A stretch of 64,000 nucleotides of DNA from Candidatus Nitrosopelagicus sp. (GTDB lineage: Archaea; Thermoproteota; Nitrososphaeria; Nitrososphaerales; Nitrosopumilaceae). Every line of letters starts with the position of its first letter. Position 1 is the first letter of the stretch. The notes below the pieces were generated by a model, which did no database searches, was not told where the DNA came from, and worked only from the letters and a program-made list of their open reading frames with translations. Of the stretch, positions 6,115 to 57,725 are shown piece after piece. Position numbers and translations under genes: made by a program. The stretch covers positions 1 to 64,000 of the forward strand of contig JAOMDA010000001.1 of NCBI GenBank assembly GCA_028345295.1, given 5' to 3'.

Positions 6115-6588
6115 TCACATTCGTCTAAATTCTCTAATGCCTTTTTCTGTGATTTTTAATTGGATTGATTTTCCAAAAGGACCACTTTTTTCTACTGGTT
6201 TCATGCAACCTCTTCTCTCAAGTTCTTGTAAGATTCTGTCCAGATTATTCACAGACAGATTTCCTCTTTTTTGCAATTCTTCAAATTTTGAAATGTTTGT
6301 CATCAACATACCAAGTACGATTTTTTCTTTAGACCAATTCTTTGTTGAAAATTCCTCCCTGCTGGGTGATTCTGTAAAGTTATCAGAAGGTGATTCTCTA
6401 AAGTTATCAGAAGGTGATTCTCTAAAGTTATCAGAAGGTGATTCTTTGAAGAAATTTCCACGGGGAGTCTCAGGACGAGTAGCGAGATTTGGTTTTAAAC
6501 CAGCACGTCTCAAAATTCTAGGAAGTACTCTGGCTAACGGAATGATCAAAAATATGAGTAAATAAATCCACGAATAATTTGGTTCCAT
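6115..6588 (-). CDS. membrane-anchored winged-helix protein with an octapeptide-repeat linker
   Basis: 157 residues. Residues 8-23 form one transmembrane helix. A linker (about 45-75) holds tandem copies of an octapeptide ESPSDNFR/T. A C-terminal helix-turn-helix-like domain (about 85-157; LDRILQELERRGCMKP, then a wing ending ITEKGIREF) resembles archaeal winged-helix regulators. The design suggests a membrane-tethered DNA-binding or RNA-binding protein. The repeat is described separately. Confidence 0.6.
   Translation of the reverse strand: MEPNYSWIYLLIFLIIPLARVLPRILRRAGLKPNLATRPETPRGNFFKESPSDNFRESPSDNFRESPSDNFTESPSREEFSTKNWSKEKIVLGMLMTNISKFEELQKRGNLSVNNLDRILQELERRGCMKPVEKSGPFGKSIQLKITEKGIREFRRM
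6365..6440 (-). repeat. 24-bp in-frame tandem repeat
   Basis: Three full 24-base units start at 6365, 6389 and 6413, with part of a fourth at 6437. Units two and three are identical and unit one differs at a single base. They encode ESPSDNFR-type octapeptides in the linker between the membrane helix and the winged helix of the surrounding gene. The near identity points to recent slippage or unequal crossover. Confidence 0.95.
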
Positions 6589-22098: not shown

Positions 22099-22701
22099 AT
22101 GAAAAAAGTCTCATGTGATTATAATGGATTAAAAATTGCCTTAGAATCAATTAGAAATGGTGGTGTGCTAATATTTCCTACAGACACAGTTTACGGAATA
22201 GGCTGCGACCCCTATAACAAAGAGGCTGTAAATAGAGTATATACAATCAAAAAACGTAACAAAACAAAAGGAGTTCCAATTTTAGGTTATTCAAAAGCTG
22301 ATTTAGAAAAAATTGTTGTGTTTGATGAAACTACAAAAAAAATTGCTAAGAAATTTTGGCCAGGACAATTAACAATAATTTTACCAGTTAAAGATAAAAA
22401 ATTGAAAGAATCAATGGATGCGACTGATAAAATTGCAGTAAGAGTACCAGACAATAAATGCATTTTATCACTTCTTAAACAATGTAAATTAATAATTGGA
22501 ACTAGTGCAAATCTATCTACAGAAAATTCATTTGTAGAACCTGATCTATGTGCCAAATCAATAACAGGATATGATATATTTCTAGATGGTGGAACACTTG
22601 AAAGTCTAGGTGAGTCTACTATTATTGAGATAGTAAATAAAGAAATTAAAATCTTAAGGAAAGGAGTTATTTCTCAAGAGGAATTATTTTCTTTAGTTTG
22701 A
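22099..22701 (+). CDS. sua5: threonylcarbamoyl-AMP synthase (Sua5/YrdC domain)
   Basis: 200 residues. First step of tRNA t6A37 synthesis: threonine, bicarbonate and ATP to threonylcarbamoyl-AMP. Core motifs: FPTDTVYGIGCD, KKRNKTKGVP, and the C-terminal IEIVNKEIKILRKG. It lacks the extra C-terminal Sua5 domain, so it is the short YrdC form. Next to a Cgi121 (KEOPS) gene that acts in the same pathway. Confidence 0.93.
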   Translation: MKKVSCDYNGLKIALESIRNGGVLIFPTDTVYGIGCDPYNKEAVNRVYTIKKRNKTKGVPILGYSKADLEKIVVFDETTKKIAKKFWPGQLTIILPVKDKKLKESMDATDKIAVRVPDNKCILSLLKQCKLIIGTSANLSTENSFVEPDLCAKSITGYDIFLDGGTLESLGESTIIEIVNKEIKILRKGVISQEELFSLV

Positions 22702-23219
22702 ATTTACTAATCACATGTCAAAGGAATCTAGAAGAACAAACAATTGATGAAATACGTAATCTTTTAGATGAATTTGGTGATTCTAATCCAAAAATATCTA
22801 AAACAGAATTTTCAGGCATAATTCAAGTAAATACCATAATTGATACTATTGAGGTTATAACAAAAATTAGGGAAAAAATTTCTGAAGAACCATGGTTAAT
22901 TAGATTTTGTTCTAGACTTATTCCGATTCAGAAAGAATGTGAATCTAATCTCAATGTGATAAGAAATGAAATTGCGAAGATGATTTTTTGTATAAATAAA
23001 GATCAGACCTATAGAATAACCATAGAAAAAAGAAATTCACAAATGAAATCTCAAGAAATAGTTACACATATTGCAGATTTAATTCCAAATAAGGTATCCT
23101 TAGAATATCCAGATTGGGAAATTGTAATTCAGATAATGGGAAAAATAACTGGAATTGGAATTGTTCCAAAAAATTCTATTTTAAGTGTAAATCGTGAAAA
23201 ACGTTTAGACTCATGTTAG
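22698..23219 (+). CDS. THUMP-domain RNA-binding protein (Tan1-like)
   Basis: 173 residues. TTG 22698 overlaps the Sua5 stop. The C-terminal half (about 75-165) follows the THUMP pattern (YRITIEKRNSQMKSQEIVTHIADLIPNKVSLEYPDWEIVIQI split across strands and helices). Tan1 THUMP proteins help tRNA acetyltransferases in ac4C12 formation; archaeal equivalents are uncharacterised. Genomic link to tRNA modification supports the call. Confidence 0.75.
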   Translation: MNLLITCQRNLEEQTIDEIRNLLDEFGDSNPKISKTEFSGIIQVNTIIDTIEVITKIREKISEEPWLIRFCSRLIPIQKECESNLNVIRNEIAKMIFCINKDQTYRITIEKRNSQMKSQEIVTHIADLIPNKVSLEYPDWEIVIQIMGKITGIGIVPKNSILSVNREKRLDSC

Positions 23220-23987
23220 TATAGAAGATTTTTCTACAAGTAAATCTTCCAGTGGGGAATTAGAATCAATTGAATTAATATGTTTTTTAGAAATATGAAA
23301 ATAATTTTTTAGGAAACGAGAATTATCAACTCTTAAAGGAATTTTACTAATATTATTATTAATATCTGCATACAATTTTTCTAATAGACTTTTTTTACCA
23401 ACTGCAATTAAACAAAAACTAGTTTTTGGATTTAACCCCGCATTTTCAATAGCATAATTAATCTGTGTAGTTCCTGCAAATCGCAACAGAATGTCTGTTT
23501 CTAATTTTTTTGAGAGCATAGTTTTTTCTCTTTTTGCTAAAAGTGATAGAGAAATTATTTTTTTGATATGTGATTTATTAAGTAAGAATTTTGATGAAAT
23601 TGCTTGAATTATTAAATTTGGAAATTTTTTTCTTAATTTATTTAGTGATATATTATCAAAGATGTAAGTTTTTTTCATTTCAAATATTTCAATATTGTTA
23701 GAAAATATTTTTAGTTGTATCCTTGAGAATGTTCCACCATGAATTATTGGAATTATGTTAATTACATCATTATCATTTAGGATTGTGTCATAACCATTAA
23801 GGGCTGAAGAATCAATCTCATTTACTGCAATCAATAAATTTTTTCCGTCAAAAGATGTAGTATTTTCTGGTTTAGTACTAATTAGATAGTCAATTAATTG
23901 TTTAACTGTCAGATTACTCCTATCTAATATGATTTCATCAATATCAAATGATTTTCTTGCACCACCAGTAAATTTTACAGTAATCAT
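23211..23987 (-). CDS. cgi121: Urm1/MoaD-like beta-grasp domain fused to Cgi121 (KEOPS subunit)
   Basis: 258 residues in one uninterrupted frame. Residues 1-85 look like a ubiquitin-fold sulfur carrier: beta-grasp pattern, LTVKQLIDYLI, LLIAVNEIDSS, LNDNDVINIIP, ending His83-Gly84-Gly85 as in Urm1 (LHGG). Residues 88-258 resemble Cgi121/TPRKB, the KEOPS subunit that aids t6A transfer to tRNA (LETDILLRFAGTTQINYAIENAG, IAVG). In free modifiers the GG is C-terminal and is adenylated; here it is internal. Converges with the THUMP gene, which is next to Sua5. Domain calls are by eye. Confidence 0.75.
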   Translation of the reverse strand: MITVKFTGGARKSFDIDEIILDRSNLTVKQLIDYLISTKPENTTSFDGKNLLIAVNEIDSSALNGYDTILNDNDVINIIPIIHGGTFSRIQLKIFSNNIEIFEMKKTYIFDNISLNKLRKKFPNLIIQAISSKFLLNKSHIKKIISLSLLAKREKTMLSKKLETDILLRFAGTTQINYAIENAGLNPKTSFCLIAVGKKSLLEKLYADINNNISKIPLRVDNSRFLKNYFHISKKHINSIDSNSPLEDLLVEKSSILT

Positions 23988-24031: not shown

Positions 24032-24403
24032 TTATTCTGATTTCTCTGCATCATTAAGAATTTCTTCAGCTAAGGTTTTCTCTGGTTCTGATGCTGGTTC
24101 TGATGCTGGTTCTGATGCTGGTTCTGATGCTGGTTCTTGGGTTATTTTTGGAGATGTCTTTTCATCCACTTTATTTCTCTCTAAGAATTCTTTTTCATCA
24201 TCAATTATCTTTTGTTTATGTGCCTGAAATTTTTGTTCTCTGAGAAGAATTTTTGTTATATATCCTGCAATTTCATTTTTTAGACTCTTAGAACGTACAA
24301 TTGTAATTTCGTTTAGACGTTTCTTATTCTCAGTAAAATCTACACCAAAACTATCTTTGTATTGCGACAAGATTTCAGTTGAAAGTCGTTTTATTCTATC
24401 CAC
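24032..24403 (-). CDS. rps17e: ribosomal protein eS17 with repeat-bearing C-terminal extension
   Basis: 123 residues. The first 55 or so match archaeal/eukaryotic S17e (RIKRLSTEILSQY, FTENKKRLNEIT, KSLKNEIAGYITK). A charged extension follows, with tandem ASEP tetrapeptides near residues 90-110. Normal archaeal eS17 is about 60-70 residues, so the tail is an addition. GTG 24403. The DNA repeat is listed separately. Confidence 0.85.
   Translation of the reverse strand: MDRIKRLSTEILSQYKDSFGVDFTENKKRLNEITIVRSKSLKNEIAGYITKILLREQKFQAHKQKIIDDEKEFLERNKVDEKTSPKITQEPASEPASEPASEPASEPEKTLAEEILNDAEKSE
24084..24137 (-). repeat. 12-bp in-frame tandem repeat, 4.5 copies
   Basis: Unit GGTTCTGATGCT starts at 24084, 24096, 24108 and 24120, with a half copy to 24137; copies are identical. 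Encodes ASEP repeats in the eS17 tail. Perfect identity suggests recent expansion. Confidence 0.95.
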
Positions 24404-26147: not shown

Positions 26148-27905
26148 ATGCCACCTAAAGGAGCGAATCTCTTAGAATATAGTGAAGAGGGACGCAATAT
26201 TCTCTCAAAATTTTCTAATCCACCATTAGAAGGATTTGCTATGCATGCAGTAAATGCAAGCATTAGTGAATTTATGAAAAATTCAACTACTACAGTTGAA
26301 AAAGGTCGTGATTATCTTTTGTGGCACTTGATAAATGTTGAAGGGGTTTTAGAAGATTCTGCAGAAAATGCCATAATTGATGGTGGATATGATGAAGGTA
26401 TAGATGCGTATCTATTAGATTCTGACGAAAAAAAGATTAGACTATTCCAGTCAAAATTCGGTTCTTCTCATTCAATAGGTGAAATAGATCAATTCGTTCA
26501 AGATGTAATACGACTAAAAGAAAAAGAACAATCTAAAGTAAAACGTGATGAATTACAATATCTCTGGAAAATTCTTAATGACAAGAAAATAAAGTTAGAA
26601 CTAGTATACATAACAGATCAATTTGTAGATGATTATCAAAATGATAAAGTTAGGGTTATGGGTAGACAGCAGGTATATGAGACACTATGGGAACGTGTCA
26701 AAAAACCTGCCAAAGGTCATAACGCTAGTCTTAAAATTCTAAAACAACCACTTGAACACAAAAACTGCAAAATCTGTGTGGTATCAGCTTTTGATTTAGC
26801 AGAATTGGTAGAAAAAAATGAACATTATATTTTTGAATCAAATATTAGAAAACATCTAGGTGGAAAAGGTTCGATAAATAAGAAAATTTCAAAGACATTA
26901 GAAAATGATCCACATAACTTCTTTGAATGGAATAATGGAATTACAGTTACTGTAGATGATGTTTCAATTAAAAACAATGAATTATTCTTAAAAGGTGCGC
27001 AGATAGTTAATGGGGCACAAACTTCTAAAAGTATTCTAGATAAGAAAAAGAAAGCAAATAATGTGGATGCTGAAGTCTTAGTCACTGTAATTAAAACTAA
27101 AGATGAAGAACATCAAAGAAAGATTACAAAGTATAGAAATTCTCAAAATGCAGTTAAAGGAAAGGATTATGTCTCATTGCAGGATTATTTTGTCTCTATC
27201 CATCACATGCTTGCAAGATTCAATTATTGTTTTGAACATCAACAGGGTTTATGGTTAAATCTTACACCATCTGAGAAAGTCAAATTTCAAGGTGATGAGA
27301 TATTTAACAAATATCTTCCAGAAGTGAAAGATAGATCTAGAATCAAAGATGATTCAGCTATTGCATCATTTGTATCATATTTTATTCAAAAACCAAATGA
27401 AGTCTACGGTGGAATTTCAAAATATCTTCCAAATGGGTCAAAATATGAAACTGTGTTTAATGATGAGTTAGAATGTGATTACAGATATTTCCTATTTCCA
27501 CATTTAATTCGTGAATTTGCTAAAGATCAATTAGGATATGACAGAAAAAGCACCCAAAATAAAAACAAAAGATATGCTCAAAGTCTATTTGTTGCTGTAA
27601 CTGCAAGAGTTATTCACAAAAATATACTTGGAAAAAATGATGATTTCAAAAATGATATTGTAGAATTAGAGAAGATTATTCAGAATTTTGGATTATGTGA
27701 AAAGATTTTGAGAGTGACAGACAGAGTAGTAACCAAATTCCTAGAAGACTCTGCAGTTGAGTCAAAAATTGAAGAATCCAATACTGCTCATAATTTCTTT
27801 TCAAATAATGTATATGGTAATGAAATGCTAAAAATTATTGATAGAAAAATTAGTCAAGAGCAAAACGAAATAGATTATATCAAAAAAACAATTTCTGGTA
27901 TCTAA
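26148..27905 (+). CDS. AIPR-family protein with a PD-(D/E)XK-like N-terminus (putative phage defence)
   Basis: 585 residues. Residues 60-110 show a Mrr-like nuclease pattern: DEGIDAYLL with Asp86, then LFQSKF with Q101-x-K103. From about 225 the AIPR (abortive infection phage resistance) core is visible: ESNIRKHLGG, FFEWNNGITV, GAQIVNGAQTS and KITKYRNSQNAVK. AIPR proteins are linked to abortive infection in bacteria and often lie in defence islands. The gene is alone, divergent from the cupredoxin, within the stretch between tRNA-Cys and tRNA-Thr. Confidence 0.85.
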   Translation: MPPKGANLLEYSEEGRNILSKFSNPPLEGFAMHAVNASISEFMKNSTTTVEKGRDYLLWHLINVEGVLEDSAENAIIDGGYDEGIDAYLLDSDEKKIRLFQSKFGSSHSIGEIDQFVQDVIRLKEKEQSKVKRDELQYLWKILNDKKIKLELVYITDQFVDDYQNDKVRVMGRQQVYETLWERVKKPAKGHNASLKILKQPLEHKNCKICVVSAFDLAELVEKNEHYIFESNIRKHLGGKGSINKKISKTLENDPHNFFEWNNGITVTVDDVSIKNNELFLKGAQIVNGAQTSKSILDKKKKANNVDAEVLVTVIKTKDEEHQRKITKYRNSQNAVKGKDYVSLQDYFVSIHHMLARFNYCFEHQQGLWLNLTPSEKVKFQGDEIFNKYLPEVKDRSRIKDDSAIASFVSYFIQKPNEVYGGISKYLPNGSKYETVFNDELECDYRYFLFPHLIREFAKDQLGYDRKSTQNKNKRYAQSLFVAVTARVIHKNILGKNDDFKNDIVELEKIIQNFGLCEKILRVTDRVVTKFLEDSAVESKIEESNTAHNFFSNNVYGNEMLKIIDRKISQEQNEIDYIKKTISGI

Positions 27906-28239: not shown

Positions 28240-28821
28240 TTATTCTTTATTATATTTATGACGGTTAAAACAATTCCAAGCTAATGAATCATCTTTAACC
28301 TCTTTCTCACTAAGAAATTTAAAATTAGTAACAACTTTTTTCTTTTTTAGTAGATTAACTTGAAAACTCTCATATTTTTTACACTTACATTCTTCGTATA
28401 GGCAATCATTATTTTGTTCATCATCATGATCATCTTTTCTATGCCCACAGTTACATAATTCATCATTTTTTACATCACCAAAGAATTTTTTGCTATAAAC
28501 TGCAAATCTTATAATAGCACTACCATGATGTCCTTTCTTAAATCGATCATAATTGTCTGATATTGGTAAAATTTTGTAGAAATATTTGTTAGTTGAAGGT
28601 TTTCTGGAATCAGCACCTATGATGAACCAATAATCATCTCCTGTTTCTACAAATCTAACCTTGATCGTATGATCATTCCACCAATGCACAGTTTCTAACC
28701 AAAGATTTGATGCTTTTTTCCTTTCAGGAAACATTAGTGCAATATTCATCCTTACATCAAAATATCTATATGCTACACCTAAGAAATCTTCATACCAAAT
28801 GATCGATGTATTTTCAGACAC
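28240..28821 (-). CDS. protein with a CxCGHx4H cysteine/histidine cluster, function unknown
   Basis: 193 residues from GTG 28821. A beta-rich N-terminal domain (about 1-115) with many aromatics is followed by CNCGHRKDDHDDEQN and CLYEECKCKKY (about 122-150), which supply six Cys/His ligands like the CxCGH zinc motif of small archaeal proteins. No function can be assigned. Converges with the 56-aa zinc protein gene. Confidence 0.55.
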   Translation of the reverse strand: MSENTSIIWYEDFLGVAYRYFDVRMNIALMFPERKKASNLWLETVHWWNDHTIKVRFVETGDDYWFIIGADSRKPSTNKYFYKILPISDNYDRFKKGHHGSAIIRFAVYSKKFFGDVKNDELCNCGHRKDDHDDEQNNDCLYEECKCKKYESFQVNLLKKKKVVTNFKFLSEKEVKDDSLAWNCFNRHKYNKE

Positions 28822-32258: not shown

Positions 32259-32846
32259 TTGTCTGAAACAGAAGCACAGGAAGTAATAGAAGCTGAAAAA
32301 GTTGAAGAGGTTTCTCAAGTAGAGGAAACATCAACTGAGGCAGAAACTAAAACTGAGGTAGAAACTAAAACTGAGGCAGAAACTAAAACTGAGGCAGAAA
32401 CTAAAACTGAAGTAAAACCTACAGAAAAAACTGAAATACAGTCAGAGCCAAAAACAAAAGTGCAAGATAAATGGGGAATTGCACATATTTACAGTAGTTA
32501 CAATAATACAATTATTCATATTACAGATCTTACTGGTGGTGAAACAATTGCAATTAGTTCTGGAGGTCATCATGTTAATGCAGATAGATATGAATCGTCA
32601 CCATTTGCAGCTATGAAAGCAGCTAACGTTGTTGTAGAAGCTGCAAAAATTAAAGGATTCACAGGATTGCATATAAGAGTAAGAGCAGTTGGAGGTGTTG
32701 GTTCTAGAGTTCCAGGACCTGGTGCACAAGCTGCAATTAGAGCACTAGCAAGAGGGGGATTTAGGATAGGTAAAATTGATGATGTCACACCAATTCCTCA
32801 TGATACTACAAGAAAGAAAGGCGGAAAACGCGGTAGAAGAGTCTAG
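32259..32846 (+). CDS. rps11: ribosomal protein uS11 with acidic N-terminal extension
   Basis: 195 residues, about 60 longer than normal uS11. The core starts near residue 70 ([22 protein letters not shown]) and ends with [21 protein letters not shown]. The extension is Glu/Thr/Lys-rich with tandem TEAETK hexapeptides. TTG 32259. The tail is likely disordered. Confidence 0.95.
32334..32405 (+). repeat. 18-bp in-frame tandem repeat, four copies
   Basis: Unit ACTGAGGCAGAAACTAAA starts at 32334, 32352, 32370 and 32388; the second copy differs by one base. Encodes [12 protein letters not shown] repeats of the uS11 extension. Confidence 0.95.
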
Positions 32847-56864: not shown

Positions 56865-57725
56865 TTAATAATTTTTTATTAAAACTTCTTTGTGTCCAGT
56901 TCTCTTTTGGGAGTTAGAATTGATCGCTCTATTTACAGCAATTTCTTTAACTTTCCATTTCTTTGATGAGAATATTTTTTTGACTATTTTTGTATTCGAA
57001 TTTGACAGCAGTACATGAGAGCCATTAGAGTTTAGCTGATTTGCTAAATCAGCCAATCTCTGAAGGTCATCTTCTGTGAAATCTCGATGAGTGTAACTAG
57101 TGAAGTTTGCAGTATCACTAACTGGTTGATATGGAGGATCAAAATATACAAAATCACCTTTTTTGGTATCCTTCAAAATTGATTCAAAATCTCGACATGA
57201 AATTTTGATTTTATCAGACTGCAAAAATTTGCTCACTGTGGTTAAATTTTCCCTGTTCACAATATTGGGATTTGTATATCTACCCAAAGGGACATTAAAT
57301 TTACCCTTACTATTTACACGGTATAATCCGTTAAAACAGGTTTTATTCAAAAATAGTAATCGTGAGACTTTTTCAATCTGGCTTTTTGGCTCTTGCTTTC
57401 TTATCTCATAATAGTATCCAGTAGAATCCTTATGGTAGTTTTCTGAATGATTTTCAAGTGATTCGATTAATCTTCCTAGTTTATCCCTAATTGTTACATA
57501 TGCTAAAACCAGATCCGAATTCAAATCAGAAACACTACATTTGAGATTAGGCTTCTTTGCAAGTAAATCAAACAATACAGCCCCACCACCTAGAAATGGC
57601 TCAAAATATGTTCCAAATTTCTTAGGAAAGTTTTTCTCCAATTCTGTTAAAAGTTGCCTTTTTCCGCCAGCCCATTTTACAAATGGTTTTGGTTCTAGTG
57701 CTACCTGCTGATATTCTTGTGCCAA
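56865..57725 (-). CDS. DNA adenine methyltransferase (Dam/D12 class)
   Basis: 286 residues. N6-adenine methylase of the alpha class: KWAGGKRQLLTEL (SAM motif I) at about 14-26, then EPFLGGGAVLF, and catalytic FDPPYQP. No restriction enzyme or specificity partner nearby, so an orphan. Dam relatives often methylate GATC; target here unknown. Flanked by tRNA-Leu and tRNA-Thr. Confidence 0.9.
   Translation of the reverse strand: MAQEYQQVALEPKPFVKWAGGKRQLLTELEKNFPKKFGTYFEPFLGGGAVLFDLLAKKPNLKCSVSDLNSDLVLAYVTIRDKLGRLIESLENHSENYHKDSTGYYYEIRKQEPKSQIEKVSRLLFLNKTCFNGLYRVNSKGKFNVPLGRYTNPNIVNRENLTTVSKFLQSDKIKISCRDFESILKDTKKGDFVYFDPPYQPVSDTANFTSYTHRDFTEDDLQRLADLANQLNSNGSHVLLSNSNTKIVKKIFSSKKWKVKEIAVNRAINSNSQKRTGHKEVLIKNY

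Follow-up and report, generated by a model that had tools for sequence, protein, structure and literature searches.

A Urm1-like modifier joined to the KEOPS subunit Cgi121 through a conserved His-Gly-Gly in Nitrosopumilaceae: a candidate JAMM-processed precursor

In eukaryotes, ubiquitin is fused to ribosomal proteins, so that a modifier ending in Gly-Gly is made as the N-terminal part of a protein related to translation. For Haloferax, it was reported that a linear fusion of SAMP1 to MoaE is cut by HvJAMM1 in vitro precisely behind the Gly-Gly and that cleavage in vivo is lost when the Gly-Gly is deleted, and natural fusions of a ubiquitin-like (Ubl) protein to MoaE occur in species other than Haloferax (PMC4443979). 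In Caldiarchaeum, CsJAMM cuts SAMP precursors and CsRpn11 processes pro-ubiquitin (PMC6043591). A Ubl-Cgi121 fusion was described by Makarova & Koonin in 2010 in all Thaumarchaea then sequenced; they noted that it is co-transcribed with S17 and suggested a link, perhaps regulatory or perhaps between Ubl, KEOPS and tRNA modification (PMC2948915). Our literature search found no paper on cleavage of the Ubl-Cgi121 fusion.

The window analysed here is a stretch of 64,000 nucleotides from Candidatus Nitrosopelagicus sp. (assembly GCA_028345295.1, contig JAOMDA010000001.1). An earlier note, made from the letters of this DNA, had drawn attention to an open reading frame at 23211-23987. These coordinates proved exact with a correction of the strand: the frame lies on the minus strand (P0001, 258 codons from an ATG start, encoding 258 aa), and a plus-strand reading was ruled out by many stops. 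Pfam and NCBIfam identify the gene as a Ubl-Cgi121 fusion, and the closest named relative of its protein comes from a Candidatus Nitrosopelagicus MAG (75% identity), which places the window in a marine member of the ammonia-oxidising Nitrosopumilaceae. Residues 1-85 (23733..23987, minus strand) matched Pfam ThiS over residues 4-85 (1.9e-10, or 1.9e-11 with residues 1-85 alone) and Pfam Urm1 over residues 2-85 (7.5e-5). Since both matches reach the last profile position, the beta-grasp domain is whole, with its end at His83-Gly84-Gly85 (HGG; 23733..23741, minus strand), where the earlier note had put it. In an AlphaFold2 model made with 36 relatives (mean pLDDT 90.4), the fusion has two confident domains and the sole segment below pLDDT 50 is residues 83-86, H-G-G-T; the junction between the domains is predicted to be flexible. 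Foldseek with the Ubl side of this model returned Urm1 (2k9x, and 6yuc, Uba4-Urm1), SAMP1 and MoaD. Failure of the N-terminal half to match a beta-grasp fold had been named beforehand as the outcome that would overturn its reading as a ubiquitin-fold sulfur carrier, and a match was found instead, with Pfam and Foldseek in agreement. The fold of the Urm1/SAMP/ThiS/MoaD carriers is thus present, but the free C-terminal Gly-Gly of a sulfur carrier is absent from the encoded protein, in which the Gly-Gly is internal and would become free only after cleavage.

The sequence after the HGG is Cgi121-like, as had been supposed, and the domain occupies residues ~90-258 (23214..23720, minus strand). Pfam CGI-121 matched residues 123-233 (5.7e-8), the NCBIfam Cgi121 equivalog NF011465 was over its cut-off (2e-34), and Foldseek with the Cgi121 side recovered the solved KEOPS Cgi121 chains 8up5, 7kjt, 8unk and 4ww7. 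MjCgi121 contacts the tRNA CCA tail through Phe21, Gln28, Lys56, Met60, Gln71, Ile72, Ile76 and Gly80 (PMC7718258). We mapped these contacts by profile alignment with the chain numbering shifted by two, which placed seven of them on Q128, K160, T164, Q175, I176, I180 and G184. Q175, I176 and G184 are invariant in all 87 distinct fusion proteins collected (see below), I180 is retained in 83/87 and Q128 in 80/87. Lys56 aligns to the variable K160, next to which K161 is Lys in 83 of the 87, and the Met60 position is Thr164 here and Thr in 76/87. Phe21 falls on residue 122, a position occupied by Phe, Tyr or His, but this placement is uncertain. Most CCA-binding residues of Cgi121 are therefore present, and judged by these residues the Cgi121 half looks functional. 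Other genes of the t6A pathway accompany it, with Sua5 in the window and Kae1/TsaD in the window's genome.

The fusion gene stands 44 bases downstream of the gene for ribosomal protein S17e (24032..24403, minus strand; Pfam 7.8e-16), and the two, being on the same strand, are probably co-transcribed. The neighbours named in the earlier note are both there, transcribed towards the fusion from the other strand: Sua5/TsaC, the threonylcarbamoyl-AMP synthase of the t6A pathway (22099..22701, plus strand; TIGR00057 2e-49), and a THUMP-domain protein (22698..23219, plus strand; Pfam THUMP 1.8e-6), the 3' end of whose gene overlaps that of the fusion gene by 9 bases. This layout is conserved among loci with enough flank, with S17e and TatD upstream in the same orientation in 70/70, the convergent THUMP gene downstream in 76/76 and Sua5 downstream in 68/76; all these relatives lie within or near Nitrosopumilaceae, so the conserved gene order may be mere inheritance. 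The window also holds perfect or near-perfect tandem repeats inside coding sequence, namely 12-base units at 24082-24137 in the S17e C-terminus (EPAS), 24-base units at 6365-6445 in a 157-residue protein (ESPSDNFR) and 18-base units at 32333-32410 in the ribosomal S11 N-terminus. An AIPR-family protein (26148-27905, plus strand; 1.1e-44), of a family linked to phage-defence loci, lies near a 193-residue protein without a Pfam match (28240-28821, minus strand), and a D12-class N6-adenine DNA methyltransferase is encoded at 56865-57725 (minus strand; 2.2e-66).

Both the Gly-Gly and the fusion persist in relatives; lack of conservation of the Gly-Gly in close relatives, the other outcome named beforehand as overturning the reading, was thus not seen either. 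HGG is invariant in 87/87 distinct fusion proteins, derived from 117 loci; whole-protein searches, free of motif bias, supplied 35 of them, and the other 52 came from a scan with two patterns, one containing HGG, 35 of these 52 also carrying the Cgi121-side pattern. By parsimony on a FastTree tree of the 87, the codons of H83, G84 and G85 changed 9, 30 and 31 times with no amino-acid change, and residues 86-98 underwent 10-33 amino-acid changes per site. The alignment and codon counts delimit a variable linker at residues 86-89 (23721..23732, minus strand), whose first residue, immediately past the Gly-Gly, is Thr here, Ser in 59 and Ala in 21 of the 87. HGG is not there by chance, and the codon pattern indicates that it is under codon-level purifying selection in the fusion. 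Fold stability gives no obvious reason for the constancy of Gly84 and Gly85, because they belong to a predicted flexible tail; the constant HGG at the join makes it probable that the two halves are separated once the chain has been made, and we regard it as the predicted motif of cleavage and activation.

Each of the 21 single-contig Nitrosopumilaceae genomes (21/21) contains exactly two ThiS-type domains by PF02597, one in the Cgi121 fusion and one in a frame of 438-498 residues with an E1, and PF09138 gave no further credible match in Nitrosopumilaceae. No separate Urm1 was found in this family with either profile, which divergent Ubls can escape (PF02597 missed the Cgi121-linked Ubl of genome G045). 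As both ThiS-type domains are N-terminal parts of longer frames, a free Ubl active with E1 seems to need processing. In the six E1 fusions read, the Ubl part ends in GG (AVAGG/AVSGG) just before the E1. The Ubl-E1 fusion of the window's genome (L074, 3046-4374, G000:C12) has an internal AVAGG before its E1 domain, and there and in several relatives its gene is directly downstream of a threonine synthase-like gene.

This Ubl-E1 fusion is the single E1 of the window's genome, which also encodes two Prok-JAB proteins and one NcsA-like protein, most closely related among solved structures to a U34-tRNA thiolase (2e-52). The first Prok-JAB protein (141 aa, HSHP...PSNTD) matched P. furiosus JAMM1 (4.7e-13) and also the desampylase model, under that model's cut-off; in the second, Glu replaces the motif Asp. 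Two features expected of a JAMM-processed precursor are found together: a conserved Gly-Gly followed by dispensable residues, and a JAMM in the genome. Gene order elsewhere, Ubl-Cgi121-E1 in G103 and G110 and JAMM-Ubl-E1 in G040 and G044, supports a link of the Ubl with E1 and JAMM. The Cgi121 of G103:C59 and G110:C69 (L198, L201) is short, seemingly without the C-terminal part.

In one class-wide sample, the fusion is present in one open frame in 67 of 69 Nitrosopumilaceae genomes. Most other sampled families of the order and class have a separate Ubl gene directly before Cgi121, and the unfused Ubl ends at HGG followed by a stop, or at HGG plus 1-10 residues (GGS, GGCL, GGMVGV, GGCLRYDGEVE and others). 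Cgi121 was not found beside the Ubl in G043, G145, G151, G163 (f8) and G044, and another stretch stands between the two in G061 and G065. Fusions of Ubl to Cgi121 that keep HGG occur outside Nitrosopumilaceae in G159 (f8), G104 (f24) and G101/G106 (f22); since f8 and f22 also have members with separate genes, fusion probably took place several times, independently in several lineages. In G046 (L042, G046:C62:2200-4700), the partner joined to the Ubl through HGG is a phosphoribosyltransferase (Pribosyltran 3.4e-16), and Cgi121 is the next gene, overlapping that of this fusion.

These data also bear on what else the fusion could be. It might stay intact, with the Ubl as a permanent adaptor that docks KEOPS to a partner (e.g. 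E1, NcsA or the proteasome) and HGG as a docking or linker element. In favour of this, the near-universal retention of the fusion in Nitrosopumilaceae shows that it is compatible with function, and Cgi121 has kept most tRNA-CCA contact residues; however, constant glycines in a disordered tail beside changing residues, and unfused homologs that end exactly at HGG, would both be left unexplained, and we consider this unlikely. Another reading starts from the many unfused pairs whose HGG codons contain the ATG of Cgi121 (CATGGNGG), where a single indel can fuse both genes: HGG would be inert inheritance, trapped at the junction by such an indel. This accounts for the place of HGG but not for its persistence, and with ~30 synonymous and 0 non-synonymous changes per Gly codon it is largely refuted already by the codon test and very improbable.

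Two Nitrosopumilaceae genomes carry the gene re-split at the junction, G086 with HGGA and then TGA, and G156 with HGGGKNKRKL and Cgi121 in another, overlapping frame; sequencing error may be the source of these splits. They would suit a route that dispenses with a protease, in which a programmed frameshift or a premature stop at HGG would give free Ubl, or an internal start would give free Cgi121. Near the junction of the 87 genes, however, neither a conserved alternative-frame stop nor a conserved internal start exists, and on this ground a programmed frameshift or early stop and internal Cgi121 initiation in fused genes were rejected; such a route is just as improbable as inert inheritance. 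That the Ubl tail has no E1-dependent role and the domain merely stabilises or regulates Cgi121 or KEOPS is hardly credible, as the fusion that persists after HGG loss in G050 (L041, G050:C77:1-2100; LHCSAF, the sole such case seen) is one incomplete genome against 87/87 and against the Ubl-Cgi121-E1 order described above. The G050 genome is 82% complete and Kae1, E1 and JAMM are all absent from it; the missing E1 and JAMM mean little because the genome is incomplete and Kae1 is missing too, and its GG loss, in what is also the sole sampled genome of its family, therefore cannot serve as a knock-out made by nature for the E1/JAMM pathway.

We favour the reading, with a probability of roughly 0.7, that the protein is a pro-modifier cut by a JAMM protease after HGG, which would yield a sulfur carrier or modifier and a KEOPS subunit. 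The ubiquitin-precursor idea of the earlier note is thereby strengthened on comparative grounds (HGG under selection, a junction predicted to be flexible, closed genomes in which no free Ubl was detected, the presence of JAMM and E1, and repeated fusion and splitting precisely at HGG); the cut, the cutting enzyme and the sulfur or conjugation targets are what we infer. The Urm1-like domain and Cgi121 would be translated as a single chain, which a single-domain JAMM metalloprotease (desampylase) would cut after HGG, i.e. after Gly85. One product would be the mature Ubl with a free Gly-Gly carboxylate; once adenylated by the genome's E1, it could pass sulfur on to tRNA (NcsA, s2U34), be conjugated to proteins, or both. 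The other, Cgi121 with a new N-terminus, would join Kae1, Bud32 and Pcc1 and, with Sua5, make t6A37. The fusion would go back to an operon with a Cgi121 start that in many cases overlaps the codons for HGG, and would fix a 1:1 supply of Ubl and Cgi121, both serving anticodon-loop modification; a shared substrate may be the reason for this coupling. Some points speak against the pro-modifier: NcsA-type thiolases may accept other sulfur sources, so s2U34 need not use the Cgi121-linked Ubl; sulfur relay could also draw on the Ubl that is part of the Ubl-E1 protein; a divergent free Ubl may have escaped the profiles; and G050 keeps the fusion without GG, which shows that the fold does not depend on it.

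A bolder extension, which we hold only tentatively and regard as rather doubtful, is that cleavage acts as a maturation switch. Uncut Ubl-Cgi121 would be inactive or differently active, the JAMM cut would set the supply of wobble-uridine thiolation or urmylation and of t6A, and every Urm1/SAMP-type protein of Nitrosopumilaceae, the E1-fused Ubl included, would start as an inactive precursor; one protease step would then tune two anticodon-loop modifications. If the pro-modifier reading is right, these abundant marine ammonia oxidisers make their Ubls solely as precursors with an internal Gly-Gly, the fate of one Ubl is bound 1:1 to that of a t6A-complex subunit, and U34 thiolation (or urmylation) is tied to t6A37 in one gene. 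The fusion would be the natural counterpart of the engineered SAMP fusions, in parallel to the ubiquitin-ribosomal protein fusions of eukaryotes. The predicted cut is fixed to a single residue, which makes it testable by mass spectrometry.

The likeness to those eukaryotic fusions lies in a GG-ended modifier placed N-terminal to a translation-related protein, whereas here the modifier is of the Urm1 type, a JAMM rather than a cysteine DUB is the expected protease, and the partner modifies tRNA. The fusion is the one described by Makarova & Koonin in 2010, likewise adjoining S17 (PMC2948915), and the "new link" between thio-modification or urmylation and t6A that the earlier note proposed is not new, both the fusion and the idea of a link having been published in that account. 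As far as that account of the fusion goes, it discusses neither the conserved HGG at the junction nor cleavage of a precursor, and neither the missing free Ubl nor the gene pair with an HGG end outside Nitrosopumilaceae (PMC2948915). The present analysis adds a test of selection on HGG, the flexibility predicted for the junction, the HGG-ended gene pair with its repeated joining and splitting, and the finding that no free Ubl was detected. The Caldiarchaeum precursors, as in the pro-modifier reading, carry a GG with extra residues that a JAMM-family protease takes off, but the tail of CsUb-pre has 9 residues and the tail here is a whole protein of ~170 residues (PMC6043591). In the SAMP1-MoaE/HvJAMM1 system of Haloferax, as in the model proposed here, a Ubl is joined via GG to a partner and a JAMM protease gives two active proteins; that linear fusion was engineered and its partner belongs to molybdopterin synthase, whereas the present fusion is natural and its partner belongs to KEOPS (PMC4443979).
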